Program-made: the position numbers and the translations under genes
Source: Sulfurospirillum deleyianum DSM 6946
Lineage (GTDB): Bacteria; Campylobacterota; Campylobacteria; Campylobacterales; Sulfurospirillaceae
Reading direction: 5' to 3'
DNA: 64,000 bases
Assembly: GCF_000024885.1 (NCBI RefSeq)
Contig: NC_013512.1
Span: 2,232,001 to 2,296,000 of the forward strand
Shown: positions 281 through 63,688 of the stretch, piece by piece
Layout of the letters: each line of letters starts with the position of its first letter
Numbering within the stretch: the first letter of the stretch is position 1
Notes under the pieces: model-generated
Told to the model about the DNA's origin: nothing
The model's input: only the letters and a program-made list of their open reading frames with translations
Databases searched by the model: none

Positions 281-2291
281 GATTTACTTCTTCTACAATG
301 TTTACAAAGTCATCAACTGTCTTTTTAATCTCTAAAAGTTTTTCACTTACCTGCTTTGCAAAAAGGATCATATTTTTTTTCACTTTTTCAAAAATAGTAT
401 CATCACTTAAAATGTAATTGGCTATTTTGACATACTCTTCCACGCTAAATGCATGTATTTTCTCAAGAGAATCCAACATACCCAACCTAATATAAGCATC
501 TTTTGCAATATGATTTTTATTTAATAAAATCAAAGGAACACGCCCTTTTGCTATGTATTCATTCAATGCTTCCCCTGAATGCAGGGGAAACGTATCTAAA
601 TAATAATCAATAACATAACCATAAAGATGAGGATTCACAAAACCTGTAAAAATAAACCTCTCTTCGTCTATATTGTAACGAATAAGCTTTTCACGAATAT
701 TCTGCATATCTCCTTTTCCACAGGCAAGATAGATCGTATTTGGATTATTGTTAAGTATTTTTGAAAGTGCTTCAAGATACATATCACTATCTATCTTAAT
801 CAACCTCCCAATGCTTCCAAGGATACGCTTTCCAGTCCATTTTTTACGTATCTTAATGGCTTCTTTTTCAAAAAAATCACTCTGAGGATTTGAAAATTGT
901 TCTAAAATAGGAATGTCAAATAGACTAAACTTAAATTTTGTTTCTGCTGAAAAATGACTCATTCTCTTATCGATTCCCAGCACATCATACTCAAAATTTC
1001 CATGACTCCAAAATATCTGTTTTTCTACACTTCTTGAACTCAATAAAAAACTCGCAATGGGCGTGTTGTTATTGGCTACAATCATGGTGTCAATTTCATT
1101 TTTTTGCATATCATTACGTATCGCTAAAGCCCGTGTTAAATGGCTTTGAAAATTATTTGCGAGGTTGAGACTCTCAAACGCAACACATCTTACATCAAAG
1201 CCCAAATTTCGGATACTTTCAATGCATTTTTCATCGTCTAGACTTTTTTCAATGATTGCCATCGAATAAACAACTAATTCGTATTTTTCCTTAAAATCTT
1301 TATCCTCCGCCAATGCACTAAGAAGCGAAAACTCGACCTTAAAAGGAGAATTCTCCACGATTCTATCTTTCACCAATGCGATTTTCTTCTTTACATGTAA
1401 AGATATTTTAGGCAAAGGAAGCTTCTGTTCTTCCGCCCATTTGGCATAAAAAGCACTTGCCTCTTCTTCAATTTCAATGTTAAATGCTTTCATCTCTTCT
1501 TGTGTTTGAATACGATTGGTGACAATATGACTCATTAAAAAGTGCAAATTCATCACCTCCTCCATCATCCCACGCTCTTTACATGTAACAAAGAGTTGCT
1601 TCAAAACGGGGTATAAAATATCTCTCCAAGAAGCATGATTTTCAAACCCCTTGATTTGCCAAAAAAAGCCGAGTATCCATGTACCAATCCCCATACGAGT
1701 CGCATAGTTTGCTTTTAAAAAACGCTCTATGTCCAACGAGTCTGCTAAGCCTTGAATCACCCATTCCACAGGGATTTCAAACGATTCACAAAAACTTCTT
1801 AGGGCTTTGGCATTGGCATCCATGAGATGATAACTTTTTCCATCAAACCACAGGTGCTCCCCCATAAACCACGACAAACACTTTACTCCCTCGCCATTTG
1901 CCATTTTTAAAACGAACAAAAGATGCGCAAAGATAAAACACTCTTTTTGAGTGACATCATACGTCGCATAACTCTGCTCAAGTAAGGCTATAAAGGAGCT
2001 TAATGTTGCATCCTGCACCAAGGGCGTTTGAGAAAATAAAAACCACAGATTAATATAATTATTCTCTAGAAGGTGACCCTCTTTAAGATACCCATACAAC
2101 CGAACACGTAAGGCTTGCAAAAGATTTATCACATGTTCATGGGAGCATTGCAATGTTCCGCTCACGCTTGAACGCTTATAAAGCTCAGGCATATTGGAGC
2201 GTAAAACACCTTCAAATGTCTCAAAATCCAAGGGATGAGAGAGCACTTCAGCGAGTTTTGCAACATACGCATCATCTATCATCACATTCAT
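273..2291 (-). CDS. Glycosyltransferase-like protein (GT-B-type C-terminal half), flagellin modification cluster
   Basis: A 672-residue cytoplasmic-looking protein with no signal peptide. The N-terminal half (about 1-300) is helical and unassigned. The C-terminal half resembles a GT-B glycosyltransferase: WSHGNFEYD near residues 428-436, a strand-loop GSIGRLIKIDSD near 492-503, then ILNNNPNTIYLACGKGD, a 'FTGFVNPHLYGYVIDYYLDTFP' type segment and GEALNEYIAKGRVPLI, typical of nucleotide-sugar binding in SPINDLY/OGT-like enzymes. Its start overlaps the stop of the Maf gene as ATGA, which indicates translational coupling. Lying beside maf and flagellin, it probably adds or extends a sugar on flagellin; this is inference. 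Two TTACATGTAA copies lie in the coding sequence, at 1391 and 1579. Confidence 0.75.
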   Translation of the reverse strand: MNVMIDDAYVAKLAEVLSHPLDFETFEGVLRSNMPELYKRSSVSGTLQCSHEHVINLLQALRVRLYGYLKEGHLLENNYINLWFLFSQTPLVQDATLSSFIALLEQSYATYDVTQKECFIFAHLLFVLKMANGEGVKCLSWFMGEHLWFDGKSYHLMDANAKALRSFCESFEIPVEWVIQGLADSLDIERFLKANYATRMGIGTWILGFFWQIKGFENHASWRDILYPVLKQLFVTCKERGMMEEVMNLHFLMSHIVTNRIQTQEEMKAFNIEIEEEASAFYAKWAEEQKLPLPKISLHVKKKIALVKDRIVENSPFKVEFSLLSALAEDKDFKEKYELVVYSMAIIEKSLDDEKCIESIRNLGFDVRCVAFESLNLANNFQSHLTRALAIRNDMQKNEIDTMIVANNNTPIASFLLSSRSVEKQIFWSHGNFEYDVLGIDKRMSHFSAETKFKFSLFDIPILEQFSNPQSDFFEKEAIKIRKKWTGKRILGSIGRLIKIDSDMYLEALSKILNNNPNTIYLACGKGDMQNIREKLIRYNIDEERFIFTGFVNPHLYGYVIDYYLDTFPLHSGEALNEYIAKGRVPLILLNKNHIAKDAYIRLGMLDSLEKIHAFSVEEYVKIANYILSDDTIFEKVKKNMILFAKQVSEKLLEIKKTVDDFVNIVEEVNHA

Positions 2292-4171
2292 GCCTTTACC
2301 TCAGATGTATGACTATAGTGGCTTCCCTTACGCTCCATCGCCACCTGAATCGCATCAATGCACCCCGCAAGCGCAAACAGCCACCCTTTATGGGCGTGTA
2401 TCCATAACGTAAGCTTTTCATAGCGTTCCGCATCATTACATGTAAAACGCACTTCAATGCGGGCAAGTTCCATCTCTTGCACCAAAAGCATGGATTGTCC
2501 CACATGCCAAATTAACCGTTCAAAACGCTCTTCTCTTGCTCCCTTACGAAATTCCAAAATCTCTACTTCAAGAGCTTCTAATCGCTTCATTTCCACATTT
2601 TCATGTGCGTCTAAGGCTTCACACAGCACTGCGGTTTTTAAAAAAAGTTCTTCTGCTTTTGCCCTCTGCTCTGCTAAAAAAGAGCCTATGGCTTCAACCT
2701 TCTGCGCCACTTCGTGCTGCACACGCTTAAGTTCTCCTTCACTAAGAGGTGTTAATTCAATGGGCTTTTTGGTCTTGCTTTTATCTACCGCCCCCATCAC
2801 CTCAGCAAACGGACGTTCCATCGCTCCAAAAATGCGAGCACCACCCTCCGTGGCATTGATGGTTTGCATACGCCCTTTGGTTTCGGCGATATCTTTTTCA
2901 AAAAAGGCTCGAAACCAGTTCCACACCGCCGTGGTTTTGATGACCCCACCACCACCGTAACGCTCAGTATAGCCATCGCCTGCTTTATGTTTGACCTCAT
3001 CTTCACCAAACACATGCCCTGCTGAGTGACTTTTGCCCTCATCGCTGTACGCCAAATCTTGCCCAATGAGCACGCAGGTTTTGAAGCCACTGTGGTAAAT
3101 AAGTTCATACGCTTTATTCGCCGCACTCATCCCAATACCCACATACCCCCACGCATGCGCACCTGTCTCCATCATATAGCCAAAAGGACGCATATTCATC
3201 TGCATAATCCCAGCTTTTATGCTTCCCACTACCTCAGGGTGTTGCAAGGAGCTTAGAGAAAAAATAACGCCTTCAAACGCCTCTTTGGGCGTCTCTTTGA
3301 AAAAACGCCCCGTTAAAGGAATGCGTTCCATAGAGACCACCACATCGGGCTTAATCCCATAGCGTGTTAAAACAGGAAAGCTCGCATCCACCGCAAAAAT
3401 CGTGATGTACGGTACCATCTGTTTCAAAAGCGGTAACTGTTTTGCCAAAGAAGGACCGGTAGAGACTAAGACCGCTACCTCAGTCGTTTTAGCTCGTTTA
3501 AAAAACTGAAGCAAAGGAGGTGTAGTAAGCATTAAAGGAAGGTTCATAAAATGATGCTCCACCCCCACAAGTGCGTCGTGCATATCATTGCCAGCAAATT
3601 GCACGTTTTGTTGCAAACACTCCAAAAACAGACGATTGCACTGAAGGATGAGCTCTTCATGTATCTCATAAAACGCACCATTTACATGTAAATCATACAG
3701 CTTTGCGTAACGCTGTGTCTCAAAGGTACTAAAAAGTGTGGAAATGATAGGAAAATTAAGCTCATCTTTTCCAAGAAGTATCAAGCGTTCACTGTTTAAC
3801 TCCTCTGAAAAATCAATCAAGTGAAACAGAATGTGGATGATATATGGCTCAGGCTCAATGACCACAATGCGTTGGTGTTTTTTGTTTGCCAAAAGGTGTT
3901 TCAACAATGCCCCATTGCCCATTCCAAAAAAGTAAAGGTAGGGGTACTCTTGAAAGACGTTAAACTGCTCTTTTTGCACTTCTAAAACAACGTGTGGTTT
4001 GGTCGCATACAAAGGTGCAAACGTTGTTGTATGGATGAGATTGAGCGTTTCAAGCGCTTCATTTTCCATAAAAATCTCATACGGAATTTCTAAAGACAGG
4101 CGACTTAGTACATGGGCAAGAGAAGGATTTTTTAACAAAAGTGCTGAGAAATTTTTTTCATACAAAGCCAT
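2288..4171 (-). CDS. maf: Motility accessory factor Maf (DUF115 family), flagellin sialic-acid-type glycosyltransferase
   Basis: 627 residues. The central DUF115/MptE-like region contains GNDMHDALVGVEHHFMNLP (about 194-212), the loop VLVSTGPSLAKQLPLL (about 234-249) and VDASFPVLTRYGIKPDVVVSMER (about 261-283), the signature of Maf proteins. In Campylobacter and Helicobacter, Maf proteins transfer pseudaminic or legionaminic acid to flagellin in the cytoplasm before export. The C-terminal quarter is helical. The gene lies directly downstream of flagellin in the same direction but is separated from it by a terminator (4223-4258), so it may have its own weak promoter or depend on read-through. 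Its ATG follows an AGGTGA ribosome binding site. Confidence 0.88.
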   Translation of the reverse strand: MALYEKNFSALLLKNPSLAHVLSRLSLEIPYEIFMENEALETLNLIHTTTFAPLYATKPHVVLEVQKEQFNVFQEYPYLYFFGMGNGALLKHLLANKKHQRIVVIEPEPYIIHILFHLIDFSEELNSERLILLGKDELNFPIISTLFSTFETQRYAKLYDLHVNGAFYEIHEELILQCNRLFLECLQQNVQFAGNDMHDALVGVEHHFMNLPLMLTTPPLLQFFKRAKTTEVAVLVSTGPSLAKQLPLLKQMVPYITIFAVDASFPVLTRYGIKPDVVVSMERIPLTGRFFKETPKEAFEGVIFSLSSLQHPEVVGSIKAGIMQMNMRPFGYMMETGAHAWGYVGIGMSAANKAYELIYHSGFKTCVLIGQDLAYSDEGKSHSAGHVFGEDEVKHKAGDGYTERYGGGGVIKTTAVWNWFRAFFEKDIAETKGRMQTINATEGGARIFGAMERPFAEVMGAVDKSKTKKPIELTPLSEGELKRVQHEVAQKVEAIGSFLAEQRAKAEELFLKTAVLCEALDAHENVEMKRLEALEVEILEFRKGAREERFERLIWHVGQSMLLVQEMELARIEVRFTCNDAERYEKLTLWIHAHKGWLFALAGCIDAIQVAMERKGSHYSHTSEVKA

Positions 4172-5719: not shown

Positions 5720-5773
5720 GATAAATCCTTTTATCGTTTTATTTCTCGGGCTTCCTTGCCTTTGATGAAAACA

Positions 5774-5800
5774 AGATCGACACCTCAAAAAAAAACTTTA
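5774..5800 (-). promoter_or_regulatory. Sigma-28 (FliA) promoter of flagellin
   Basis: On the minus strand the sequence is TAAAGTTT, 11 bases, then GTCGATCT. The FliA consensus is TAAAGTTT-N11-GCCGATAA, so the -35 half matches exactly, spacing is exact, and the -10 half matches at 5 of 8. It would give a 5' leader of roughly 45-50 bases before the flagellin ATG. Confidence 0.9.
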
Positions 5801-5833: not shown

Positions 5834-5857
5834 ACGAAAAAACGTTTACATGTAAAG

Positions 5858-7942: not shown

Positions 7943-8002
7943 GCACTCTTTTTCTCTTCCAAAACCATCTCACCTATTTTTACATGTAAGGAAAAATACC
8001 TA

Positions 8003-10223: not shown

Positions 10224-10253
10224 TTACATGTAAGAAGCACTTCTTACATGTAA
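10224..10253. terminator. Hairpin built from two TTACATGTAA palindromes, between convergent genes
   Basis: Two copies of TTACATGTAA (10224-10233 and 10244-10253) are joined so that TTACATGTAAGAA pairs with TTCTTACATGTAA: a 13-bp stem with a 4-base loop, followed by CCCTTCTTTTATTT on the plus strand. It lies between gltA (plus) and the AMIN-domain gene (minus), where a bidirectional terminator is expected. The terminator role is inferred. Confidence 0.7.
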
Positions 10254-10966: not shown

Positions 10967-10983
10967 AAACGCTCCTTTGTCTA

Positions 10984-13755: not shown

Positions 13756-13888
13756 GTGCTATTATTTTATCATTTCGAGCTTGAAAAAGCCCTTTGAAGC
13801 GATTGTAGTCAAAAATCAAAAAAGAGGCTCAAAATATTTCAATCTGCAATATGTTACAATGCCAAAAGATTTACATGTAAGGATTTTT

Positions 13889-15026: not shown

Positions 15027-15800
15027 ATGACAAAAACCATTCATTTCTCCAGCTATTCCAGCATAAAAATTGGTCCGAGTGTGGATGTTTTACTCCTTGA
15101 AAAACCCCAACCCCTTCCAAAAAATCACATCATCATCGGTGGCGCAAATAACCTTCTTGTAAGCCCAACTCCCCCACCGCTTGCTATGCTTGGCAAAGCG
15201 TTTGACTTTATTGTTCAAGAGGGCGATGTTTTACATGTAGGTGGTGCCACACCGAGTGGAAAAATGCTCTCCTTTGCCAAAAAACACAATCTCGCAGGTT
15301 TTGAATTGATGCAAAAACTCCCCGGAACCCTAGGCGGTATGGTTGCTATGAATGCGGGGCTTAAAGAGTGGGAAGTTTTTAACCATCTTATCGCCATTCG
15401 CACCGAAAAGGGGTGGATAGAAAAATCTAAGATAAACTATGGCTACCGCTTTGCGGACATTGAAGGGATTGTGTATGAAGCGACCTTTACATGTAAAGAG
15501 GGATTTGATGAAAATCTCCTTGCTATGTTTAAAAAAATGCGGGATAACCAACCCAAAGAAGCAAGTGCTGGAAGCTGTTTTAAAAACCCTGTGGGACACT
15601 ATGCGGGTAAACTTATTGAAGAGGCTGGCTTTAAAGGTAAACGCTTTGGTGCGATGATGTTTAGCCCTATGCACGCCAACTTTTTGGTCAATACAGGAGG
15701 GGGAACCTTTGAAGAAGCATTTGCACTCATCACGGAAGTCAAAGCAGAGGTTTTAAAACGCTTTGGTGTAAAACTCGAAGAGGAAATTATCATCCTCTAA
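15027..15800 (+). CDS. murB: UDP-N-acetylenolpyruvoylglucosamine reductase
   Basis: 257 residues. It reduces UDP-GlcNAc-enolpyruvate to UDP-MurNAc for peptidoglycan. FAD-binding features are visible: FSSYSSIKIGP, IIGGANNLLV, GFELMQKLPGTLGGMVAMNAGL, and the C-terminal substrate motif ASAGSCFKNP with GKLIEEAGFKGKRFG. It is the short type II form. One exact TTACATGTAA lies inside at 15487 (reads FTCKEG) and one variant at 15231. It converges with tsaD; the gap is three bases. Confidence 0.96.
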   Translation: MTKTIHFSSYSSIKIGPSVDVLLLEKPQPLPKNHIIIGGANNLLVSPTPPPLAMLGKAFDFIVQEGDVLHVGGATPSGKMLSFAKKHNLAGFELMQKLPGTLGGMVAMNAGLKEWEVFNHLIAIRTEKGWIEKSKINYGYRFADIEGIVYEATFTCKEGFDENLLAMFKKMRDNQPKEASAGSCFKNPVGHYAGKLIEEAGFKGKRFGAMMFSPMHANFLVNTGGGTFEEAFALITEVKAEVLKRFGVKLEEEIIIL

Positions 15801-15803
15801 TGC

Positions 15804-16808
15804 TTACATGTAAAAGATATCCTTAGAAGAGCTACGCACTTTCAACTCTTCTAAACTCACAAAAACACCTTTTTGATAAGCTTCCACACCACATCTGCCA
15901 ATCATCGCAGCATTATCGGAACAAAATGCCATTTTAGCGGTGTAAAGTTGCGCTTTTTTAGAGGCACAAAAACGCTCAAGTTCCCCCCGCAAATAGAGAT
16001 TGGCACTCGCTCCACCAACCACGCCAAAGTGCTCTACTTTTCGCGCTTGATACGCTTTTTTTATTTTTTGCATTAAATGCGCTACGGCGACACGCTGAAA
16101 CGAAGCGCAAATATCGCACAGGATTTGCTCATCCATCCTCTCTTGCGCCTCAATGCAAAGTCTGACTTGATTTTTCAAACCGGAATAGCTAAAAGCCAGC
16201 ATCGAAGAGGAGGTTCCTTGCAAAGGAATGGTAAAATCAAAGCACTTCGCATCCCCTTTTTGAGCGTACGTTTCAATAATCGCCCCCGCAGGGTAGGGAA
16301 GTCCTAACATCTTTCCCACTTTATCAAAACTCTCACCAAAGCTATCATCCATCGTTGTCGCAAGCAGTTCAATCTGCTCTAAACTCTTTACATGTAAAAG
16401 CTGTGTGTGTCCTCCAGAGACGAGCAGAACATCCATCGGAAAACGTGTCTCTTCTTCAATAAACAAAGAACAGATATGCCCCTTAAGGTGATTGATACCT
16501 AGCAAAGGAAGATGGAGCGCCACACTCAGCGCTTTTGCCATACTCACCCCTTCAACAAGGCTCACCGAAAGTCCTGGCTCATTGGTCACCGCAATCGCTT
16601 TAAGTGCCTCAAAATAGGGTTGTGTCTCTTCTAAAATCTTAGGTAAAGTGATCGCATGAAGACGCGCAGCCAGTTCTGGTACCACGCCACCATACTTGGC
16701 ATGTTCTTCATCTTGGGAAATTTTTTTATGAAAAAGTAGTTTTTTATCCTCTATGCGTGTGATGGCAATCGAGCTATCATCACAGCTACTTTCGATACTT
16801 AAAATCAT
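15804..16808 (-). CDS. tsaD: tRNA N6-threonylcarbamoyladenosine transferase TsaD
   Basis: 334 residues from the ATG at 16808 (MILSIESSCDDSSIAI); the longer frame overlaps the upstream gene. It belongs to the Kae1/Gcp family and transfers the threonylcarbamoyl group to A37 of ANN-decoding tRNAs. Metal ligands are in the GINHLKGHI motif. The ATP-binding strands LLVSGGHTQLL, DDSFGESFDKVGKMLGL and VVGGASANLYLR are present. The stop codon is supplied by a TTACATGTAA copy (15804-15813), so the protein ends in Tyr-Met. The start overlaps the stop of the M15 peptidase gene as ATGA. Confidence 0.96.
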   Translation of the reverse strand: MILSIESSCDDSSIAITRIEDKKLLFHKKISQDEEHAKYGGVVPELAARLHAITLPKILEETQPYFEALKAIAVTNEPGLSVSLVEGVSMAKALSVALHLPLLGINHLKGHICSLFIEEETRFPMDVLLVSGGHTQLLHVKSLEQIELLATTMDDSFGESFDKVGKMLGLPYPAGAIIETYAQKGDAKCFDFTIPLQGTSSSMLAFSYSGLKNQVRLCIEAQERMDEQILCDICASFQRVAVAHLMQKIKKAYQARKVEHFGVVGGASANLYLRGELERFCASKKAQLYTAKMAFCSDNAAMIGRCGVEAYQKGVFVSLEELKVRSSSKDIFYM

Positions 16809-20483: not shown

Positions 20484-21077
20484 TTATTGTAGGAGTATTA
20501 CTTTATCAAAATTTTCTAAAATTTTTGCAACCCTTTCTTGCCATAATGTAGCAAACAAAGCTTTTTCTTCAGGAGTGAGTAGGGATGTAAAAAGTTTTGG
20601 CATCAGTGCTGATACACGAGGATCAAAAGGAATCGAGTTAGGGTCATACGCCACATTCACTTCCACGCCAGTATCTAAGCGCTTCATCTTTACATGTAAA
20701 GATATAGGAGCCTTAAAATGCATACGTTGCGTACGTGAAAAATGTCCACTTAACCCTTTAAACCCCCACACATCTGTTGCACCGGTTATAAACGAAAAGA
20801 CATTCGCAACGACCCCTGTGGTTCCCTCTTCGATTCCCTCTTTAAAAAAGACCTCTATCTCTCCACGCACAGGCAAGGTGTCAGGATAGAGTTTTTTTAA
20901 CCCTTCACGCACCATCAAATACGCCCCAGCAATCGTAGGACAACTATGCCCAGCACTTTTGACCACATCCAAGTAGCTCACACATACCTTCCCCTCTTCA
21001 AACGCACCTAAAAGCTCAGAGAGCGGGTCATAAAGCGTGATTGAGGAAACCGTGTCAAAAAAAGCAGGATAATTCAT
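20484..21077 (-). CDS. FmdE-like protein of unknown function
   Basis: 197 residues, no signal peptide. The segment VVKSAGHSCPTIAGAYLMVREGLKKLYP (about 38-66) resembles the conserved [S]GHxCP core of the FmdE family (first named for formylmethanofuran dehydrogenase subunit E), where His and Cys bind metal. No other methanofuran genes are present, so the name does not indicate function. The C-terminal zinc ribbon of some FmdE proteins is not seen. A TTACATGTAA copy reads LHVK near residue 126. It is divergent from a methyltransferase gene, with a strong inverted repeat between them. Confidence 0.6.
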   Translation of the reverse strand: MNYPAFFDTVSSITLYDPLSELLGAFEEGKVCVSYLDVVKSAGHSCPTIAGAYLMVREGLKKLYPDTLPVRGEIEVFFKEGIEEGTTGVVANVFSFITGATDVWGFKGLSGHFSRTQRMHFKAPISLHVKMKRLDTGVEVNVAYDPNSIPFDPRVSALMPKLFTSLLTPEEKALFATLWQERVAKILENFDKVILLQ

Positions 21078-21778: not shown

Positions 21779-22317
21779 GGCTGAAGGGTTCCAAAGTATA
21801 AACTGCGTTCTTTATTTTCGACCCAGTGATATTCAGGGTCTTCATCGAGCCTTGCCCAATACAACTCACCTGAATTGCGCCATGGATCGAGTAAAAGACC
21901 GTTTTGAAAGGGAGCGTGTTTTGCGACAACGACCACACTGTTATGCTCATCAAACTCACCTTTATTGGCAACACCCCAACGCAAATCAAAACTCTCATAA
22001 CGCCCTTTTTTCAGATGCGCCATCATATCTTCGCTCCATTCATAGCAGAGTCCTCGCTCTTTGAGTCCTGTATTGATGAGAAAATTATGAAAGGTGGGTG
22101 GGCTTACCAGCGCATAACGTTTGGCTAAAACATGCGGATAGGTTAATGCCTCATACGCCAACAAACGTGCCTCTTCGTAGCGTACACTATTACCCAAAAG
22201 CATCAAATCGTTGGTCAGTTTTTCTATGCCATCTCGTTTTACATGTAAGGCTTCTTGTTTGACACTACACCCTGTAAAAAGCAGTGCGATGAAGAGTAAA
22301 GCGCAAAAAGATTTCAT
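21775..22317 (-). CDS. Lipoprotein of unknown function
   Basis: 180 residues with a lipoprotein signal peptide and lipobox (MKSFCALLFIALLFTGCS, Cys 17). The mature part includes FLINTGLKERGLCYEWSEDMMAHL and LLLDPWRNSGELYWARL, with conserved-looking Cys, Trp and His residues. No family name came to mind with confidence. It overlaps the stop of the metallophosphoesterase gene upstream by 4 bases and is probably co-transcribed with it. A TTACATGTAA copy just after the lipobox reads LHVK. Confidence 0.75.
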   Translation of the reverse strand: MKSFCALLFIALLFTGCSVKQEALHVKRDGIEKLTNDLMLLGNSVRYEEARLLAYEALTYPHVLAKRYALVSPPTFHNFLINTGLKERGLCYEWSEDMMAHLKKGRYESFDLRWGVANKGEFDEHNSVVVVAKHAPFQNGLLLDPWRNSGELYWARLDEDPEYHWVENKERSLYFGTLQP

Positions 22318-23435
22318 ACGTGAGGCTTTAGGGTTAGTTTTACAATTTCACTCGGTGCCATCACACGCACCGCAGGTCCCCAATATCCTGCCCCATTGCT
22401 GACAAAAATTTGGGTTGTTTTTGAATGCTGATAAAGACCACTCAGATAGGGCTGGTCAAGGAGCACCAAAAGCCCAAAAGGAAAAATTTGTCCGCCATGG
22501 GTATGCCCACTGAGAATCAAATCAATCTTTTCATCCTTGAGTTCTTTGACAATTTTAGGTTGATGTGAGAGCAAAATAGTGGGTAATTCGTTGTTTACAT
22601 GTAAAAAGGCTTTGGGTAAATCAGGCGGTAAAAAATCAAAGCGTTTGCCTATCATATCGCTCACACCGACAAGATTGAAACGATGATCAATCATCAGTGA
22701 GCGGTTGGAGAGCACCTCTACCCCTAAGGATTCTAAGTGCTCCATAATCCCATGAACCCCATAAAAATATTCATGATTTCCTGGAACAAAGTAGACCCCT
22801 AAACGGCTTTGAACACTTCGAAGCGCATCGAGTTTATCCCCAATCTCACGTACGGGCATATCGACCAAATCCCCCGTAATCACTACAATATCAGCATCCA
22901 GTCTATTAACCTGTGCGACAAGTTCATCCATAAACGCTTTGCCTAACACTTTACCAATATGCACGTCGCTTATCTGCACCACACTGACTTCTTTGCCTAG
23001 CCCAACGATGCTCACCTCTACCTCTTTAATGACAGGAGCTTTCATCCCATTGAAAAATCCTTTCACCATGTACGAAAGAGCTAACAAAAGCATGGTCACA
23101 TCAAACACCATTTTTAAAAAGAGCCGTCTGGAGTAATCCTGTGGTATTTTAGAATAAGGAAGATGAAACAAATCGTACAGCAGTGCCACACAAAAGAGCA
23201 TAAACGACACACCTATCATCGCTGAAAATAGGGCATAGAAGAAAGGATCTAAACTGTCTAAACGCAACACTAAAAAGTAGCAAATCTCACACAGAGTGAT
23301 CGCTATCATTCCCCATTTTAACGGAGTGTGGACGTTTGATAACATGTCCACACGCTTGATAAAACGTCGATAACTGTAAAAATTAATGAGCGATAAAACA
23401 GCAATCGCAACCAGAGCAAAAGAGAGACGAAACAT
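22314..23435 (-). CDS. Membrane-anchored calcineurin-like metallophosphoesterase
   Basis: 373 residues. The first about 135 residues hold four predicted membrane helices. The phosphoesterase domain follows with all metal motifs: ISDVHIG, VVITGDLVD, PGNHEYFYG, ILLSHQP and LSGHTHGGQIFPFG. Similar YaeI/YkuE-type proteins hydrolyse phosphodiesters or lipid pyrophosphates near the membrane; the substrate here is unknown. It begins a short operon with the downstream lipoprotein gene (ATGA overlap). Confidence 0.88.
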   Translation of the reverse strand: MFRLSFALVAIAVLSLINFYSYRRFIKRVDMLSNVHTPLKWGMIAITLCEICYFLVLRLDSLDPFFYALFSAMIGVSFMLFCVALLYDLFHLPYSKIPQDYSRRLFLKMVFDVTMLLLALSYMVKGFFNGMKAPVIKEVEVSIVGLGKEVSVVQISDVHIGKVLGKAFMDELVAQVNRLDADIVVITGDLVDMPVREIGDKLDALRSVQSRLGVYFVPGNHEYFYGVHGIMEHLESLGVEVLSNRSLMIDHRFNLVGVSDMIGKRFDFLPPDLPKAFLHVNNELPTILLSHQPKIVKELKDEKIDLILSGHTHGGQIFPFGLLVLLDQPYLSGLYQHSKTTQIFVSNGAGYWGPAVRVMAPSEIVKLTLKPHV

Positions 23436-28337: not shown

Positions 28338-28367
28338 ACTCTCCTCCTTTTACATGTAAGACTTATT

Positions 28368-28491: not shown

Positions 28492-29817
28492 TCATTCCTT
28501 GTAAATTTTAAGCGTTTGATACGTCTCATAAGCAACATTCGCTCCATCAAAGGGCTTCACGTTTTTACGTTGGGTATAATCGACCAAATAGCCACCTTTT
28601 TGAGAGAGGCTAAAGTCCACACACAACTTCGCCGCAAAAATCAAAATAGGCTCAGGCACACTCTGTTTTTCGGTGCAAATAATCACGTGCGCTGAGGGCA
28701 TATCTTTTACATGTAACCAGATATCGCTCTTTTTTGCCTCTTGCAAAAGTGCGATATTTCCCTTCTCGTTTTTACCCAGTAAAATGCGGTACCCCTCCAG
28801 CCAAAAGGTTTCATAATTATTGTCTTCGCCCTTTTGCTTTTGTTTGGTGACTTTAGGCGTTAAGATGTGTATCTCTTCCAAATCCCTTGCCCCTTCAATC
28901 ACCCCCATCATCCGCTCCAAAAAGAGGCGTTTCTCTTCCAAATTTTCTCTTTGGCGATGAATCGAAAAAGCTTTTTGACGCAATTTTTTGGACTTCTTAT
29001 AGAGCATATTGGCGGCGTGTTGAGGCGAATGCGCCAGAGGTAACGCAATGCTCACAAGCTCTCCATCAAAATCATAAAGCTCCACACGCTCTTGATAATT
29101 TTTAATGCTGTACAAATGCGCTAACACCAATGTTGCCTCTTTGTGCGCTTGCTCGCTTTTGGCTAAAAGTTCTTCCTCATTTTCTAAGGCATTCATCGCC
29201 TCTGTGAGCTTTTCACTCTTTCGCTCCAGCCCCGCTTTTTTTTGATTTTTGAGTTCACAAAGCTTTACATGTAAACGTTTTTCATAGCTGGCATGCAAAT
29301 ACGCTTCAACGCTTCCGTCCATCTCAAAAGGCTTCTCTTTGAGCTCTTTAGGTGGCAAAGGCTCCAACACCTCTCCCACTTTGACACTGCGAAAAGAAAC
29401 ACTCGCATCAATATGACGCAAAGCTTCCAACACCACCTCATCTTCATCTAAGATAATCGCATTGGTATTGCGCCCTGTAAATTCAAGTTGTAAGGTGGTT
29501 TCAAAGGATTTGTAACTTGAGCTTGAAAGCACGCAAATGCGCCAAATACGGTTATTTTCTTCCACCTTCATGGAGAGTATTTTCGCATTGGCAAAGCGTT
29601 TGTTTAAGATCACGTCAAAAGGAGCGTTATAGCGTTTGGATTGTTTAAAATCGCTCTTATAAAACATATACGAATCATTGCGTGAAAGGTCAATAAAAAG
29701 CGCTTCACCCGCTTCAAACACGATGCGTAGGACATTATCGTCCACACGGTAAATCGAGGAAATCTTGTGGTATTGCTGTAAAAAATCGTTAATTAAAATC
29801 AGTTCTTTATGTTTCAT
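28492..29817 (-). CDS. NFACT-family protein (Rqc2/RqcH or FbpA type)
   Basis: 441 residues. An N-terminal NFACT-N-like region includes IIFE..EALFIDLSR and TLQLEFTGRNTNAIILDE; a long coiled coil occupies about 185-330; the C-terminal NFACT-R domain contains YETFWLEGYRILLGKNEKGN, SDIWLHVKDMPSAHVIICT and DYTQRKNVKPFDGANV. Bacterial relatives act on stalled 50S subunits (C-terminal alanine tailing by RqcH) or were annotated as fibronectin-binding proteins. It is shorter than the roughly 570-residue Bacillus form, so RqcH activity is not certain. Two TTACATGTAA copies lie within it. It runs into the glycerate kinase gene with a 3-base gap. Confidence 0.85.
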   Translation of the reverse strand: MKHKELILINDFLQQYHKISSIYRVDDNVLRIVFEAGEALFIDLSRNDSYMFYKSDFKQSKRYNAPFDVILNKRFANAKILSMKVEENNRIWRICVLSSSSYKSFETTLQLEFTGRNTNAIILDEDEVVLEALRHIDASVSFRSVKVGEVLEPLPPKELKEKPFEMDGSVEAYLHASYEKRLHVKLCELKNQKKAGLERKSEKLTEAMNALENEEELLAKSEQAHKEATLVLAHLYSIKNYQERVELYDFDGELVSIALPLAHSPQHAANMLYKKSKKLRQKAFSIHRQRENLEEKRLFLERMMGVIEGARDLEEIHILTPKVTKQKQKGEDNNYETFWLEGYRILLGKNEKGNIALLQEAKKSDIWLHVKDMPSAHVIICTEKQSVPEPILIFAAKLCVDFSLSQKGGYLVDYTQRKNVKPFDGANVAYETYQTLKIYKE

Positions 29818-29820: not shown

Positions 29821-30963
29821 TCACTTTCGTAAAATAGCACGCATCAATCTAAAAATCTCTGTCGTACTTTTAATCACCAGCATTTTGGTGCGCTCTTTCT
29901 CCATCGCCTCTTCCAAACAAATGGGGTAGCGCATAATGGAAAACAGTGCGTCAATCCCCTCATGCACCTCTAAATCATCGGCAATGCCACCCCCTAAGGC
30001 GATCAAAGGCACACCCGCTTTATGCGCACGTTTGGAAACACCACTTAAGACTTTTCCCATGAGTGATTGCGTATCAATGCGCCCCTCACCTGTGATAACA
30101 AGATGAGCGTCCTTTAGCGTTTCATCAAAATGCATGGCATCTAAGATAATCTCAATGCCTGAACGAAGTGAGGTATTTTTTAAAAATGCCAGCATTCCTC
30201 CGCCCATACCTCCAGCGGCACCTGAACCTGCTACATGGGCGATGGTTTTGCCATACGCTTTTTCAAGCACCTCGCAAAAATGCACCATGCCCGCATCCAA
30301 ACGCTCCACCATCAACGCATCAGCACCCTTTTGTGGCGCATAGACCTGCGCACACCCTTTTGTGCCATACATCACATTGTCCACATCACACGCCACGCTA
30401 AATTCACACTGCTCTAGCAAAGGCTCAACATCTGAGACATCCACACTCGCAATACTCTCTAAAATCTCACCACCGTACCCCAAAACATCACCATTTTTAT
30501 CTAAAAAACGGTATCCCAATGCTTGAAGCATCCCAAGTCCCGCATCATTGGTTGCACTGCCACCAATGCCAACAATAAACGTGCGACACCCCCTCTCAAG
30601 TGCGTCTTTTATCAACTCTCCCACGCCATACGTGGTGGTTTTTAATGGGTTGCGTTTCTCTTTGGGTACCAAAGGAAGCCCTGAGGCTTGCGCCATCTCA
30701 ATCACTGCGGTGATGCCATCACGTAAGATGCCATACTGCGCTTCAATGGGTTGCATCAACGGGTCATGCACGTTACATGTAACAATTTTTCCATCGCTAT
30801 TGTGCATTAAGGCATGAAGCATTCCCTCGCCACCATCGGCAATAGAACAGGCTTTGACCTCTGCTTCTGTATAGACGTTTTTAATACCCTCTTCTATCCA
30901 TCCTGAAAGCTCTTGCGAACTTGCACACCCTTTATACGAATCAATTGCTATGACGACTTTCAT
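29821..30963 (-). CDS. Glycerate 2-kinase (GarK/GlxK family)
   Basis: 380 residues. It opens MKVVIAIDSYKGCASSQELSGWIEEGI and has the family motifs SIADGGEGM, TTYGVGELIKDAL, IVGIGGSATNDAGLGMLQALG, GSGAAGGMGGGMLAFL and ITGEGRIDTQSLMGKVLSGV. It phosphorylates D-glycerate, linking glyoxylate or serine breakdown to glycolysis. It lies between ogt (4-base overlap upstream) and the NFACT gene (3 bases downstream), so the three genes look co-transcribed without an obvious functional link. Confidence 0.92.
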   Translation of the reverse strand: MKVVIAIDSYKGCASSQELSGWIEEGIKNVYTEAEVKACSIADGGEGMLHALMHNSDGKIVTCNVHDPLMQPIEAQYGILRDGITAVIEMAQASGLPLVPKEKRNPLKTTTYGVGELIKDALERGCRTFIVGIGGSATNDAGLGMLQALGYRFLDKNGDVLGYGGEILESIASVDVSDVEPLLEQCEFSVACDVDNVMYGTKGCAQVYAPQKGADALMVERLDAGMVHFCEVLEKAYGKTIAHVAGSGAAGGMGGGMLAFLKNTSLRSGIEIILDAMHFDETLKDAHLVITGEGRIDTQSLMGKVLSGVSKRAHKAGVPLIALGGGIADDLEVHEGIDALFSIMRYPICLEEAMEKERTKMLVIKSTTEIFRLMRAILRK

Positions 30964-31415: not shown

Positions 31416-31453
31416 ATTTAACCTTTACATGTAAAGAGGATTTGGTTCTTATT

Positions 31454-36979: not shown

Positions 36980-38145
36980 TTGAAAACCACACGCCCCTTC
37001 CCTCGTTCTGTCTCTTTGAAGAAAAAATGCTTACATGTAAAAGTCCTAAACTCTTTTTAATTGATATTAAACAATTTAAAAATATTATCTTAACCTATGG
37101 CGATGAGGGAGGAAGCCGTGTTCTTTCCGCTTTTCATGACCTACTTCTCACCTTTGCGACCGAACATGAAATGGAACTCTTTGCACTGTTTGATGACACA
37201 TTTGCCCTACTTATTGATACCCCCTTTGAGCTCTCAAAAATGGAACATCTCATCAGCGCTTTAAGCCGTGAAATGGAGCATATTCTCATTCCTTATGAGG
37301 GTAAAATACTCACACTCAATGTACACATTGGCATTAGTTTTGACCACTTTGAAGGGTTACAAAAGGCACAAAAAGCACTGCTCGTTGCCAAAGCAGAAAA
37401 CCAACTTTTCGTCACCTACTCTGAATTTGCCAATATCTTGATGAACGAAAATGAAGAAGCGATTGAAGCAATGATAAAAACAGCGATTGAAGAGGGACAA
37501 ATTGTCCTCCATTTTCAATCCATCATCGATAAAAATAGCACCGTTTTGTGCTACGAGGCCTTGCTACGTCTTGCTTATCATAACACCCTTCAATCCCCTA
37601 AACTCTTTTTAAAAATTGCTAAAAAACGCCATTTTTATGATCGCTTACTAGAGAGTATTGCACAAAAGGCGCTCACACTGGCTAAACAAAAAGGGATTAA
37701 GATAGCACTCAATCTCTCATGGGAAGATTTGCAAGATCAAGAACGTCTTGCTTTTATAGAGACAACCTTTTCGAATCAACCGATTATTTTAGAAATTGAA
37801 TACAAAAAAGAGATACCTTTTGAGCCCTTTAAAGAAGCTCTCCAACAACTCAAACACGCAAACATCACACTCTCATTGGATAATGTCTGTGATAGTTCTT
37901 TACTAGAATTCTGCGATGGAGGGTTAATTGATATCGTAAAAGTGCATGGAAGCCTCATCCGAAACCTTTGCACTGATGAACACGCACGTTTTACATGTAA
38001 CACCATTTTAGAACTTTGCAAAGCTAAAAATATCCAAACCGTTGCGACCCATCTCAATTCACAAACTACTCTCGAAACCGTGCGCACTTTGGGCTTTGAT
38101 CTTTTTCAAGGCTACATCATCGACCAACCGCACGCATTCGAATAA
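36976..38145 (+). CDS. Degenerate GGDEF-EAL protein
   Basis: 389 residues, cytoplasmic. The N-terminal part (about 25-150) has the GGDEF fold (PKLFLIDIKQFKNIILTYGDEGGSRVL), but the active-site motif is replaced by LFDDTFALLID. The C-terminal EAL domain retains CYEALLRLAY, whereas DDFG is replaced by LDNVCD and the EGVE loop by THLN. FQGYIIDQP is kept. Both domains are therefore probably catalytically inactive and may sense cyclic-di-GMP or bind partners. It is translationally coupled to mobA (ATGA). Two TTACATGTAA copies lie within (37031, 37991). Confidence 0.85.
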   Translation: MIENHTPLPSFCLFEEKMLTCKSPKLFLIDIKQFKNIILTYGDEGGSRVLSAFHDLLLTFATEHEMELFALFDDTFALLIDTPFELSKMEHLISALSREMEHILIPYEGKILTLNVHIGISFDHFEGLQKAQKALLVAKAENQLFVTYSEFANILMNENEEAIEAMIKTAIEEGQIVLHFQSIIDKNSTVLCYEALLRLAYHNTLQSPKLFLKIAKKRHFYDRLLESIAQKALTLAKQKGIKIALNLSWEDLQDQERLAFIETTFSNQPIILEIEYKKEIPFEPFKEALQQLKHANITLSLDNVCDSSLLEFCDGGLIDIVKVHGSLIRNLCTDEHARFTCNTILELCKAKNIQTVATHLNSQTTLETVRTLGFDLFQGYIIDQPHAFE

Positions 38146-39509: not shown

Positions 39510-39531
39510 AAAGACTCAAGACTGAGTCTTT
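39510..39531. terminator. Hairpin between convergent pldA and RRM genes
   Basis: AAAGACTCA-AGAC-TGAGTCTTT forms a 9-bp stem with a 4-base loop, immediately joined to a TTACATGTAA copy (39530-39539) that supplies the stop codon of the RRM gene. No long T tract follows, so terminator strength is uncertain. Confidence 0.55.
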
Positions 39532-39835
39532 ACATGTAACGCTTAATTAAAATCTCGAGGAGTTCTTCGAGGTCTATCTCTCTTGGACGATCTTCTCTAG
39601 GTCTTGCCTCATTTACTTTAAGTGTTCGTCCACCAATCTCTTTTTCATTCGTTGCTTCAATAGCAGCTTTTGCTTCTGAATCATTTGGCATTTCAACAAA
39701 ACCAAAACCTTTTGAACGTCCTGTTTCTCTATCGTTAATGATTCTTGCACTTGACACTTCACCGTACGCAGAAAACATCTCTTTTAACTGATCGCCCGTC
39801 ATCTCATACTTGACATTGCCTACATAAATATTCAT
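39530..39835 (-). CDS. RRM-type RNA-binding protein
   Basis: 101 residues from the ATG at 39835, giving the usual bacterial RRM start MNIYVGNVKYEMT. RNP2 is IYVGNV and RNP1 is KGFGFVEM (about 43-50). Similar single-RRM proteins in this phylum and in cyanobacteria bind RNA and often respond to cold. The tail is charged (ARPREDRPREIDLEELLEILIKRYM). The last two codons and stop (Tyr-Met-stop) come from a TTACATGTAA copy. GAGGAG lies upstream. Confidence 0.9.
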   Translation of the reverse strand: MNIYVGNVKYEMTGDQLKEMFSAYGEVSSARIINDRETGRSKGFGFVEMPNDSEAKAAIEATNEKEIGGRTLKVNEARPREDRPREIDLEELLEILIKRYM

Positions 39836-42017: not shown

Positions 42018-42050
42018 GTTACATGTAAGGATTGATTCCTTACATGTAAC
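42018..42050. terminator. Hairpin built from two TTACATGTAA palindromes (second case)
   Basis: GTTACATGTAAGGA, a 5-base loop TTGAT, then TCCTTACATGTAAC: a perfect 14-bp stem between convergent genes (coiled-coil protein and BamE-like lipoprotein). Its design is the same as at 10224-10253. Termination is inferred from position and structure. Confidence 0.7.
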
Positions 42051-43982: not shown

Positions 43983-44004
43983 GTATATTTACATGTAAAT
44001 ATAC
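43983..44004. promoter_or_regulatory. 22-bp perfect palindrome containing TTACATGTAA, in the porin leader
   Basis: This is the most extended copy of the TTACATGTAA palindrome: the symmetry continues to GTATA on both sides. It lies 47 bases upstream of the porin ATG, close to a candidate extended -10 (TGCTAATAAT on the minus strand, about 44013-44022). It could be an operator or a leader hairpin. Confidence 0.5.
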
Positions 44005-47792: not shown

Positions 47793-47936
47793 CAAACCTA
47801 AAGCACAACGCACATGCATCGTATCATAAGTTTTAGAACACAAACTTAGACTAAAAAAGTCTAATAACAACTCTTACATGTAAAAACTGTTATTAAACTT
47901 CTTAAGATCTTCTTGAACAATGTTTACCATAAAAAA

Positions 47937-48012: not shown

Positions 48013-48013
48013 A

Positions 48014-48090: not shown

Positions 48091-48097
48091 CTCTTTC

Positions 48098-48133: not shown

Positions 48134-48178
48134 TTCTCGCCCGAGACACCATTGTGAGATAGTGTCTCTTATACTCTA

Positions 48179-49688
<1,510 letters not shown>

Positions 49689-50877: not shown

Positions 50878-50894
50878 ACACTTACATGTAAAAA

Positions 50895-51345: not shown

Positions 51346-51379
51346 AAAATCCTCATATTTCTTTACATGTAAAAGTGAA

Positions 51380-58829: not shown

Positions 58830-59522
58830 TTAATTATAATGAGATTTTCCCCAAACAAATAATACTTCACACTCAAGCGAAGGATGAGGATACGTTTCAA
58901 TCAATTTTTTGGTTTGCGCCACACTCAAACGTTTCTCTCCGCCACTGACACCACTGTTTTTAATGTAACGAAAGAGTGAACGATTGTCCTCAAAAGAGAG
59001 ATGAAAATGTTTCACCTCTTGATGACATGTAAAGTGTTTATCGAACACCCTCTGTAAATGTTCTGCAGAGGGAAGAAAGATAGGCAAACCACTCATTTGA
59101 TAGAGCGTTTCAAAGGTTTTATCGGTAAAAATTGCAAATGCTCCCTCTTTACATGTAAAAGCAATGCGTTGAACTAAACCCTCAATATCACACGCCCACT
59201 GTAAGGCAGAAGAGGAAATAATCAAATCATACGTTTCTTGAAGTAATTGTTCTTTCTCAAAACGATCGCATACCACTTCAACTTTCTCATTTTTAGGATG
59301 CAACTGACACATAGCAAGCGCACAATCCACCCCAATAAAATGCTCATATTCCCATGTAATTGTTTTAAAAACAGCTCCACTTCCACACCCCAAATCCAAA
59401 ATACGTTGAGGATGCGATACCACCTTTGAAACCAAATAGCGTGCAATCTCTTGTTGCAAAGCAGTGTGCGCATCATAGCGATGTGCGTTCTTTGAAAACT
59501 CTCTAATATGTTGTGCCATCAT
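58830..59522 (-). CDS. bioC: Malonyl-ACP O-methyltransferase (BioC-like)
   Basis: 230 residues (ATG at 59522, with a second ATG next to it). SAM motif RILDLGCGSGAVFKTI (about 40-55), YDLIISSSALQWACDIEGLVQRI as the BioC-type motif, and a start FSKNAHRYDAHTALQQEIARYL typical of BioC. It methylates malonyl-ACP to start pimelate synthesis for biotin. The other biotin gene here, bioB, is about 50 kb away. One exact TTACATGTAA (59149) and one variant (59023) both read FTC. Confidence 0.85.
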   Translation of the reverse strand: MMAQHIREFSKNAHRYDAHTALQQEIARYLVSKVVSHPQRILDLGCGSGAVFKTITWEYEHFIGVDCALAMCQLHPKNEKVEVVCDRFEKEQLLQETYDLIISSSALQWACDIEGLVQRIAFTCKEGAFAIFTDKTFETLYQMSGLPIFLPSAEHLQRVFDKHFTCHQEVKHFHLSFEDNRSLFRYIKNSGVSGGEKRLSVAQTKKLIETYPHPSLECEVLFVWGKSHYN

Positions 59523-60012: not shown

Positions 60013-60969
60013 ATGAAATCTTTTTGGCTTCTTGTCTGTTTTAGCATGATGATGTGGGCAGATGCCCATATCTTCGTCTATCATCGTTTTAACGATGCGA
60101 GGCACCCCTCAACCAACACCAGTCTTGAAGCATTACGCAAAGAGTTTGACTATTTTAAAATGCACGGCTACGAAGTCATTCCTCTCGAAAGACTGGTGCG
60201 TGCGCTTTACAACAAAGAAAATATTCCAGATCACTGGGTAGTTTTAACCATTGACGACAACTACAAAAGCTTTTATGAACATGGACTTGCCCTCTTTAAA
60301 GAGTACAACTACCCTTTTTCCATGTTTGTCTATGTGGGAGCGACTGAAAACAACTATGGCGATTTTATGAGTTGGGAACAACTCCGTGAAACTGCCAAAT
60401 ACGGTGCTTTAGAATTTCACTCCTTCAATCATCCCCATATGCATGAACTCAGTGATGCTGATTTGAAAAAAGATTTTGAAGTGGGTCTTGAACTTTTTGA
60501 AAAACACTTAGGTATGAAGCCACGCTATTTCTCTTACCCCTTTGGAGAGTTTTCACCCAGAGTCAAAGCCATCGCTTCCTCCTATGGATTTGAAGCCATT
60601 GTCAATCAAAACATGGGAGCCGTTGCCTCTTTTAGCGACCCTATGGATTTGGATCGTTCCGCCTTGGTTGGTAAAAGTGATTTGGCAGGATTTTTAAAAT
60701 ACAAAGCCCTTGAGGCGACGTGGATTGAGCCTTTAACGCTGATGGAAAACGGTGCGCTAACATCTTTACATGTAAAGACACAAACCTCTGCATCCAAAGG
60801 AGGTATTTATATCAGTGGATATGGGTATGAAGCCTTAAATCTCAGTGAGGGTGTTTTTCAGACAAATATCAATAAAATAGCCATCAAAGAGCGTACACGG
60901 GTGATGATCTCCGTGGGCAATAAAATTTCAACGAAACTACTTGTAAAGGATAATTATGGAACTAAATAA
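60013..60969 (+). CDS. Secreted polysaccharide deacetylase (NodB-type)
   Basis: 318 residues with a signal peptide ([18 protein letters not shown]). NodB motifs: [16 protein letters not shown] (the Asp-Asp metal/catalytic pair, about 76-91), [13 protein letters not shown] (zinc histidines) and [10 protein letters not shown]. The C-terminal about 90 residues are beta-rich and of unknown role. Likely substrates are acetylated cell-wall or capsule sugars. It overlaps the start of frr by 14 bases, so it is in the secG-pyrE operon. Confidence 0.9.
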
Positions 60970-62603: not shown

Positions 62604-63688
62604 TTTTTTTTAAAATCTCAAGCTTTTTCTTTTTCTACTTTGTTGTCACGGGTGTCTATGTTATTTTTATGCCTAAAATTCTTCAGATGCTAGGTTATAG
62701 TGCTTTGCAAATTGGAATTATTTTTGCCCTTGCGCCACTGATGCGTTTTATTGTCCCTTTTTTCTTTCTCAAACATTTTAAACTCACACAAAAAACCTTT
62801 TATATAGCACTGATAGGTGCTATGATTGCTGTTTTGCTCTTTTATAGTAGCATCCACAATTTTTACTTTTTTATGTTACCCAATATGCTTCTTGGTGCGT
62901 GTTTAGGACTCATTTTACCCTATATTGAAACCTATGCGATGGAACATCTGCAAAAAGAACGTTACGGTAAATCACGCCTTTTTGGCTCAATAGGCTTTAT
63001 GCTGATTGCTATTATTCTTGCGCGGCATTTAGATGATTATGCCAATGGCTTGCATTATCTTCTTTTTGCTATTGGATTGACTGCATTTTTTGCGTTTTGG
63101 CTCACATACAATAACCCAAATTTCACCCCTTCTTCAGAAGAAAATGAACCTTTTAACCTTTTACATGTAAGCTTTTTTTGGATAGCCCTTTTTCTGATGC
63201 AAGTTAGTTTTGGAGCGTTTTATAACTTTTTTACTATTTACGAGACAGACCATCATATTAGTTTGGAAACAACCAGTTATTTATGGGCATTTGGCGTCAT
63301 TTGTGAGATTGTGCTTTTTTATTTTCAAGCGCCTATTTTAAAGCGTTTTACGCTCTTAAATTTAGTACGCTTTAGTGTTTTAAGTACTGCTATTCGATGG
63401 TTTTTACTCTTTGCCTTTCCATCCTCTCTTTTTATCGCCTATTTCTCCCAATCTCTACATGCCTTTAGTTTTGCCCTTCATCACACGGCAGCACTTTCTC
63501 TTTTATACACCCTTTACACTCATAAAAAGCTAGCTGCTCAATTTTATTATGGTATCTCTTTTGGTTTAGGTGGATTTGTGGGGGCACTATTGGCAGGCTA
63601 TTTTTACGGAAGTTATCTCTATTTGTATGCTAGTGCCGTAGCACTACTGGCGTTGATCAGTTTGCTCTTTTTCAAGGTGAGAGAATAA
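62600..63688 (+). CDS. MFS transporter
   Basis: 362 residues from the ATG at 62600. Twelve hydrophobic segments in two sixes. LPNMLLGACLGLILPYIETYAMEHLQKERYGKSRLFGSIGFM resembles the MFS_1-like/PPP family (HsrA and sugar or nucleoside carriers with an ExxR-type GKSRLFGSIGF motif). The substrate is unknown. It is coupled to the RDD gene and converges with fliL, overlapping its stop by 17 bases. One TTACATGTAA is at 63161. Confidence 0.85.
   Translation: MIFFKISSFFFFYFVVTGVYVIFMPKILQMLGYSALQIGIIFALAPLMRFIVPFFFLKHFKLTQKTFYIALIGAMIAVLLFYSSIHNFYFFMLPNMLLGACLGLILPYIETYAMEHLQKERYGKSRLFGSIGFMLIAIILARHLDDYANGLHYLLFAIGLTAFFAFWLTYNNPNFTPSSEENEPFNLLHVSFFWIALFLMQVSFGAFYNFFTIYETDHHISLETTSYLWAFGVICEIVLFYFQAPILKRFTLLNLVRFSVLSTAIRWFLLFAFPSSLFIAYFSQSLHAFSFALHHTAALSLLYTLYTHKKLAAQFYYGISFGLGGFVGALLAGYFYGSYLYLYASAVALLALISLLFFKVRE

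Follow-up and report, generated by a model that had tools for sequence, protein, structure and literature searches.

Introduction

The highly iterated palindromes (HIPs) of cyanobacteria, HIP1 (GCGATCGC) and the alternate HIPs, are reported to be tied to orphan DNA methyltransferases (MTases) that act on their inner sequence (PMC4390886). Here we describe the 10-mer TTACATGTAA of Sulfurospirillum deleyianum DSM 6946, a perfect palindrome that is kept up as a signal on the DNA of the cell itself and is tied to an orphan adenine MTase. It was noticed in a 64,000-nt stretch of the chromosome (contig NC_013512.1, positions 2,232,001 to 2,296,000; "the window" below means this whole stretch at its full length) and was followed through the host genome and the genomes of its order. 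Several losses of one enzyme in one genus provide a natural experiment in which a palindrome is tied to an MTase site by site.

The uptake signal sequence (USS) and the DNA uptake sequence (DUS) are a second kind of repeated word, and uptake through them is not known to be methylation-dependent. A count of 1,465 copies for USS and 1,892 for DUS has been reported, and AT tracts that adjoin the USS in Haemophilus, being rigid and bent, were suggested as an aid to uptake (PMC7811141). USS and DUS are described as non-palindromic, and pairs of them as serving as terminator hairpins (PMC12616744). Campylobacter jejuni is reported to import only DNA methylated by the MTase CtsM (PMC10046745); the motif of CtsM (Cj0208) in Campylobacter is given as RAATTY, with 27,280 motifs in the C. 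jejuni genome (PMC4889913). RAATTY needs no enrichment because it is short and so frequent. CtsM is also said to be the subject of a study by Beauchamp et al. in 2017. No description of the TTACATGTAA element was found among the papers listed in searches of the open-licence literature, and the word is absent from the text of Elhai (2015) on HIPs. As shown below, TTACATGTAA resembles both a HIP and an uptake sequence and does not match either in every respect.

Results and Discussion

Abundance and core of the palindrome

The window contains 33 exact copies of TTACATGTAA between positions 1391 and 63170, the same number and span as in the original prediction, which had been made from the letters of this DNA. 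One hundred dinucleotide shuffles of the window gave a mean of 0.11 copies and a maximum of 2. When all 10-bp palindromes in the window were ranked, TTACATGTAA came first with its 33 copies and the runner-up had 4. In the host genome (one contig, 2,306,351 bp) there are 1,099 copies, compared with 3 of the reversed control word. The chance-level genome count that had been named as grounds for dropping the claim was therefore not found; as with HIPs, a perfect palindrome lies far above expectation in genes and spacers alike. By word count in the window, TACATGTA occurs 36 times, TTACATGTAA 33 times and TTTACATGTAAA 13 times, with just 6 one-mismatch neighbours; the strict core of the element is TACATGTA. 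Outside the 10-mer the copies share soft base preferences only, which is unlike a mobile repeat family, the other origin named beforehand as fatal to the claim.

An orphan adenine methyltransferase

The host genome was searched for three MTase families (PF02086, PF01555 and PF00145). The PF02086 match (E 1.5e-36) is a D12-class N6-adenine MTase of 323 aa with the DLFSGSG and DPPY signatures, encoded outside the window on the minus strand (G000:C1:2136383-2137351). It is flanked on one side by a histidine-kinase-like gene and on the other by a gene for a Tat-signal, transglutaminase-like protein (Pfam was run on the neighbour in the relative G065). No endonuclease gene was present among the neighbours at the host locus, unlike in a type II restriction-modification system. 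The tetranucleotide CATG, which forms the centre of the palindrome, is not avoided by composition (256 observed and 228.5 expected), yet it reaches 0.8 of the Markov expectation. A CATG restriction system was rejected on the lack of avoidance by composition and of an endonuclease neighbour. The N6_N4 MTases (PF01555) gave no match in the host genome, and the C5 MTases (PF00145) gave two; C5 MTases were rejected as the driver of the motif, since they matched in 12 of 20 genomes and several motif-rich genomes had none.

In five genomes, homologues 48-50% identical to the host MTase lie near a hexapeptide-transferase gene with a one-gene gap between the two (Pfam on one of the five). We take these genomes to be the Helicobacter pylori group and the locus to be cysE-iceA-hpyIM, on grounds of synteny. 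M.HpyI is reported to methylate CATG (PMC10423294), and at times it has no endonuclease partner; unlike the host, the five putative hpyIM genomes hold 0-1 copies of TTACATGTAA. A more distant homologue, 33% identical, is found at thrS-infC in genome G381. This genome is presumably a Campylobacter and the thrS-infC homologue presumably CtsM/Cj0208, again by synteny. Judging from homology, the host MTase probably places N6-methyladenine (m6A) in the central CATG. The role of a methylation mark with a CATG core, one of those suggested at the outset, has thus gained evidence, the motif being tied to an orphan MTase of the CATG family.

Copy number follows the methyltransferase across the genus

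Of the 24 genomes in the genus, 15 encode an ortholog of the MTase (57-100% identical, in one case split in two pieces) and carry 869-1,496 copies of TTACATGTAA; the same gene context was seen in 12 of these 15. In six genomes (G065, G104, G138, G231, G276 and G330) the usual neighbours are present, the MTase is missing from between them, and the copies number 49-605; G138 and G276 have a 50-52% identical homologue elsewhere in the genome. Three genomes fall outside both classes: G360 (608 copies), whose contig begins at the neighbour gene, G318 (840 copies), which is 86% complete, and G171. As an index of decay, the excess of one-mismatch words over intact copies was computed by hand from the genome counts. 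It amounted to 0.12-0.42 in the 15 MTase-positive genomes and to 0.71-3.4 in the six empty-site genomes, with G318 at 0.16, G360 at 0.46 and G171 at 0.29, i.e., near-normal upkeep. A Mann-Whitney test of the decay indices (12 vs 7 genomes at least 90% complete, phylogeny ignored) gave p 0.0003. As in HIPs, presence of the palindrome tracks an orphan MTase, with G171 as an exception, a looser relation outside the genus, and a CATG specificity predicted from homology.

Orthologous stretches of up to 64 kb were then aligned in 15 species, with control 10-mers taken from the same alignments; many site pairs share sites, and the pair counts below are therefore not independent. Between MTase-positive clades, 683 of 815 site pairs were fully intact (control 11.7%). 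From MTase-positive species to G104, G065 and G138, the intact sites were 12 of 168, 18 of 154 and 22 of 127 (controls 15.4, 10.7 and 8.4%, respectively), and for all six MTase-less species pooled 118 of 602 (control 11.1%). In G171, 32 of 48 are intact. Measured against the host genome itself, G104 retains 0 of 21 sites and G065 3 of 17. Orthologous sites are thus kept between MTase-positive clades and mostly decayed in MTase-less species. A species tree was built from 10 protein sets; identities within two of them (4274-5788 and 10262-10987) suggest mixed paralogues. In this tree G104 is nested inside the MTase-positive species, so its sites were lost and not ancestrally absent. We count no fewer than three separate lineages of loss, namely G104, then G065 (alone or together with G138/G276), and G231/G330. 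Our firm conclusion is that upkeep of this DNA element is linked to the orphan MTase, or to a factor lost alongside it, and that the phased flanks described below belong to the element.

Among MTase-positive species the amino-acid identity of motif codons is 0.90 and that of flanking codons 0.77; in MTase-less species the two values are 0.768 and 0.763. Because motif codons exceed flanking codons only among MTase-positive species, the constraint acts on the DNA, and the earlier proposal of selection on DNA and not on protein holds. The one-off variants lie at the outermost base in 23 of 42 and 26 of 40 cases in MTase-positive DNA, compared with 15 of 56 in MTase-less DNA, an outer-base bias also seen in HIPs. 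Chance, protein-level selection and a mobile repeat family were rejected as sources of the copies by the counts (33 vs 0.11 and 1,099 vs 3), by the soft flanks and by the codon identities, the extra conservation being gone in MTase-less species with flanking protein identity unchanged; we give such an origin practically no weight.

Phased A/T flanks

The A/T content oscillates on both sides of the motif with a period of ∼11.3-11.4 bp, which places A/T peaks arithmetically at ∼11, 22, 33 and 45 bp from the dyad. Over offsets 4-70 the amplitude was 0.068 (791 half-sites), compared with 0.010 at TT......AA words and 0.002 at Leu codons, and a genome-wide 11-bp A/T periodicity was on these values rejected as the cause; in both data sets the observed power lay above that of all 2,000 random CATG samples. 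Coding copies of either frame, spacer copies and isolated copies all show the phasing, which was replicated in 7 other MTase-positive species. It stays above the null to ∼100 bp or slightly beyond, and a weak genome-wide 11-bp periodicity may feed the tail. From one MTase-positive species to another, the amplitude went from 0.077 to 0.077 at conserved sites (844 site-pairs) and from 0.052 to 0.049 at non-conserved sites (146). Into MTase-less species it fell from 0.075 to 0.048 at lost sites (484) and from 0.056 to 0.026 at the few intact sites (118). Such flanks suggest a longer element of bent or wrapped DNA with the palindrome at its middle. The original prediction had listed several roles and chosen none; of these, an uptake signal or a nucleoid-protein site fits the flanks, and an mRNA element found no support apart from the hairpin pairs described below.

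The dyad-symmetric 11.3-bp phasing, present in genes (both frames) and in spacers out to ∼100 bp, could mark a chromosome-architecture site, at which an abundant nucleoid protein or a gyrase-like enzyme would bind the methylated palindrome and wrap up to ∼100 bp on each side, forming a loop or wrap every ∼2 kb. E. coli gyrase sites are reported to show a GC periodicity of 10.75 bp in a pattern that spans 130 bp symmetrically around a 4-bp staggered cut (PMC6379681), and because the wide dyad-symmetric phasing resembles gyrase wrapping, wrapping of the chromosome is a strong rival to the uptake signal discussed below. The fairly even spread of the copies (4-13 per stretch in 19 sampled 20-kb stretches) also fits. 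However, phasing at gyrase sites is described as starting ∼17 bp from the cut, and the gyrase motif as degenerate (PMC6379681). Dependence on an MTase is unexpected for gyrase, six species live without the system, nothing in this model predicts that close pairs should be favoured in spacers, and no candidate reader protein was found. We consider an architectural site the main rival, at less than even odds and somewhat less likely than the uptake signal.

Like HIP1, TTACATGTAA is a highly iterated perfect palindrome with an orphan-MTase tie and near misses mostly at the outer base, and it is low, absent or replaced in some relatives; sequence, phylum and MTase differ. It could then be a HIP1-type by-product, in which methylation-directed mismatch repair keeps mutations that complete the palindrome (Elhai's ratchet) and the copies are functionless or serve repair. 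A palindrome around an orphan-MTase core, outer-base variants, kilobase spacing and the MTase tie are all reported traits of HIP1 (PMC4390886). A ratchet of this kind works at the palindrome itself and gives no account of flanks whose phasing weakens once the MTase is lost. CATG occurs 223 times outside the motif, which is no enrichment over the 228.5 expected by composition for all CATG. HIP1 on 300 kb of Trichormus plasmid A, the one plasmid tested, showed no phasing (392 half-sites, amplitude 0.0055 vs 0.068), so that by our own criterion of flank composition TTACATGTAA is unlike HIP1, and a plain HIP1 equivalent was rejected. A by-product of repair is in our view improbable.

Distribution and dialects

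The survey of related genomes proposed with the original prediction was run for TTACATGTAA on 398 genomes of the order. The counts are high in the host genus (49-1,496 copies in its 24 genomes) and range from 6 to 733 in the remaining 20 genomes of the host family, where the palindrome is patchy in related genera. One further family (f17) has nine genomes with 19-367 copies and others with 0-11; all further families of the order have 0-11.

Samples of 40-60 kb per relative were compared for variant forms. G180, G335, G102, G222 and G125 favour the 8-mer TACATGTA with relaxed ends, and in G306 the most frequent full form is CTACATGTAG (4 of 8). In G037 another CATG-centred word, TCATGATA/ATCATGAT, is enriched (35 vs 6.4 and 36 vs 8.7 expected, both strands) and is possibly a further dialect. 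CATG is therefore the common centre of TACATGTA, CTACATGTAG and ATCATGAT. Phasing at the pooled TACATGTA copies of G102, G125 and G222 was weaker (0.0285; null 95% 0.0207) and in G306 marginal (0.067; null 0.059; 16 half-sites); in G180/G335, G037 and the MTase-less G138/G276/G231/G330, with few sites, it was not above the null. In its copy number of hundreds to thousands, its unchanging inner core and its dialects by lineage, the palindrome resembles DNA uptake sequences.

In G138 (L289, L314 and L315) an asymmetric variant, TTACATGTCA/TGACATGTAA, stands beside the palindrome and seems to be enriched; TGACATGT occurs 14 times with 0.9 expected.

Spacers, pairs and mobile DNA

The genomic context was examined in a 444-kb sample of the host genome with 215 copies, 205 of them classified. 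Spacers have 1,720-3,030 copies per Mb, 5-10 times the density of 319 per Mb found in genes, and 124 of the 205 copies lie within genes. Spacings of at most 60 bp number 16 of 195, with 5.6 expected; such pairing as inverted repeats is common to uptake sequences. Both pairs in the window lie in convergent spacers and form strong hairpins on each strand when folded: the pair at 10224..10253 (10224-10233 and 10244-10253, 20 bp apart) gave -14.6 and -16.2 kcal/mol by strand, and the pair at 42019..42049 (42019-42028 and 42040-42049, 21 bp apart) -21.7 and -21.9 kcal/mol. From folding, the paired copies are putative terminator-like hairpins.

The spacer density and these hairpin pairs would suit epigenetic control of transcription. 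A regulator would then recognise the site in its methylated form at promoters and terminators, and copies inside genes would serve as decoys or as sites of pausing. Against this stand the location of most classified copies within genes and the conservation of coding copies as DNA beyond their protein context, and we regard transcription control as very improbable.

An integrated element (G000:C1:1131729-1139568) whose genes include a phage-type integrase, a DUF2958 gene and the antirestriction gene ArdA lacks TTACATGTAA, at 0 copies in 9.9 kb; it was chosen from the poorest of the 19 sampled 20-kb stretches. Each of two S. diekertiae plasmids, nearly identical to one another, carries 4 copies in 38-40 kb (∼100 per Mb). 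The S. diekertiae plasmid pSDCE1 carries a D12 MTase gene adjoining an IS21 element (L346:1692-2732), and the coding sequence of this MTase contains four TACATGTA copies (1918, 1957, 2423 and 2461).

A possible methylation-dependent uptake signal

Among the explanations, we tentatively favour TTACATGTAA as a methylation-dependent DNA-uptake signal for natural transformation, a reading that we hold with somewhat less than even confidence. The orphan MTase would methylate the central CATG of TTACATGTAA to m6A, and a receptor of the competence machine would bind the methylated, bent site, where uptake would begin. Preferential exchange of DNA so marked could raise the copy number; once the MTase was lost, the mark would be lost with it and the sites would drift away. 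The uptake signal is favoured because the enzyme family acts in this way in C. jejuni, because copies, hairpins, AT tracts and dialects match those of USS and DUS, and because the trait is dispensable. The link to the MTase at genome and site level, the outer-base bias of variants, the phased flanks, the higher density in spacers and the finding of ComEC in each of the 32 genomes searched are also counted in its favour. Like USS and DUS, TTACATGTAA has 1,000-2,000 copies per genome, hairpin pairs and dialects with a fixed inner core, and it shares AT tracts with USS. With the CtsM system it shares the D12 family of the MTase (33% identity at the likely CtsM locus) and a palindrome whose methylation would license uptake. 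The two palindromes differ in that RAATTY is short and frequent, while TTACATGTAA is an 8-10-mer several-hundred-fold above its reversed control word.

A more specific form of the uptake signal is possible, and we hold it with less confidence: TTACATGTAA may be an m6A-gated, dyad-centred DNA-bending uptake element that joins self-recognition by sequence (USS/DUS) with self-recognition by methylation (CtsM), the phased bends over up to ∼100 bp on each side folding the DNA into the uptake pore or wrapping it around the receptor.

Several points weigh against an uptake signal. USS and DUS are non-palindromic, and the phasing around TTACATGTAA extends to ∼100 bp, beyond the tracts described for USS. 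H. pylori, which has M.HpyI, is reported to take up DNA of any source (PMC10046745). Methylation of CATG at TTACATGTAA is predicted from homology, and in the open-licence literature, judged by the titles listed, no evidence of natural transformability in Sulfurospirillum was found. The decay of sites in the MTase-less species is incomplete, being least advanced in G231/G330 (38 of 102 intact) and G138/G276 (50 of 178). G171 is 99% complete and has 934 copies with no D12 MTase found, a partly guessed neighbour query being unmatched there; a recent loss, an assembly gap or another MTase may account for this case. Outside the genus, G078 (567 copies) and G125 (340) have no D12 match, and in G299 (194) and G257 (265) the D12 matches are weak or remote only. 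Many genomes have MTase homologues at 44-50% identity and few copies, and the MTase alone is therefore insufficient. Finally, ComEC is retained in all six empty-site genomes and so does not discriminate; it matched in 32 of 32 genomes searched, and loss of ComEC was rejected as the cause of motif loss.

If TTACATGTAA is an uptake signal, it links sequence-based with methylation-based self-recognition, and it would to our knowledge be the first long uptake sequence in Campylobacterota. If it is also an m6A-gated bending element, the repeated losses and the dialects offer a natural laboratory for the birth and death of such a signal. If uptake is not its role, a methylation-read, chromosome-organising site is indicated.

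Individual copies in the window

Frames and spacer status were assigned with a simple longest-open-reading-frame (ORF) gene model, by which 11 of the 33 copies are read in frame LHV, 8 in frame xTC and 2 as YM-stop at gene ends, and 12 lie in spacers. The original prediction had allowed only two sense frames; these two do account for the internal coding copies, and the third is present at the two gene ends, in TsaD (15804..15813) and in an RRM gene (39530..39539).

Frame LHV is used at 1391..1400 in ORF 273-2291(-), at 3682..3691 in ORF 2288-4171(-), in a menaquinone-biosynthesis gene (13871..13880), in TsaD (16388..16397), in ORFs at 20690..20699 and 22239..22248, in a metallophosphoesterase gene (22595..22604), twice in the NFACT gene (28707..28716 and 29265..29274), in a polysaccharide deacetylase gene (60766..60775) and in an MFS transporter gene (63161..63170). 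Frame xTC is found at 1579..1588 and 2436..2445 in the same ORFs 273-2291(-) and 2288-4171(-), respectively, and in the genes for MurB (15487..15496), glycerate kinase (30773..30782) and O6-methylguanine methyltransferase (31327..31336). It is also found twice in GGDEF/EAL coding sequence (37031..37040 and 37991..38000) and once in a methyltransferase-domain gene (59149..59158). The last had been named BioC; Pfam supports the earlier names MurB, TsaD, NFACT, Ogt-type and polysaccharide deacetylase, and for this gene generic methyltransferase domains only.

Besides the two hairpin pairs, the spacer copies are at 7980..7989, 28350..28359, 31425..31434, 50882..50891 and 51363..51372, and at 5846..5855 in a divergent spacer directly upstream of the topoisomerase I gene. 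The copy at 5846..5855 is intact in 7 of 7 aligned MTase-positive relatives and in G171, G138 and G276. The rRNA genes of the operon at 44472-49688 are themselves free of copies; one copy lies in the 23S rRNA/tRNA-Ala spacer (47874..47883) and one downstream of the 5S rRNA gene (43989..43998).

Over the whole window (1-64000), several other words are strongly avoided relative to Markov expectation, namely GGCC (14 observed, 102 expected), CGCG (25 and 136) and GATC (89 and 243), a pattern that may reflect restriction of those words, now or in the past.

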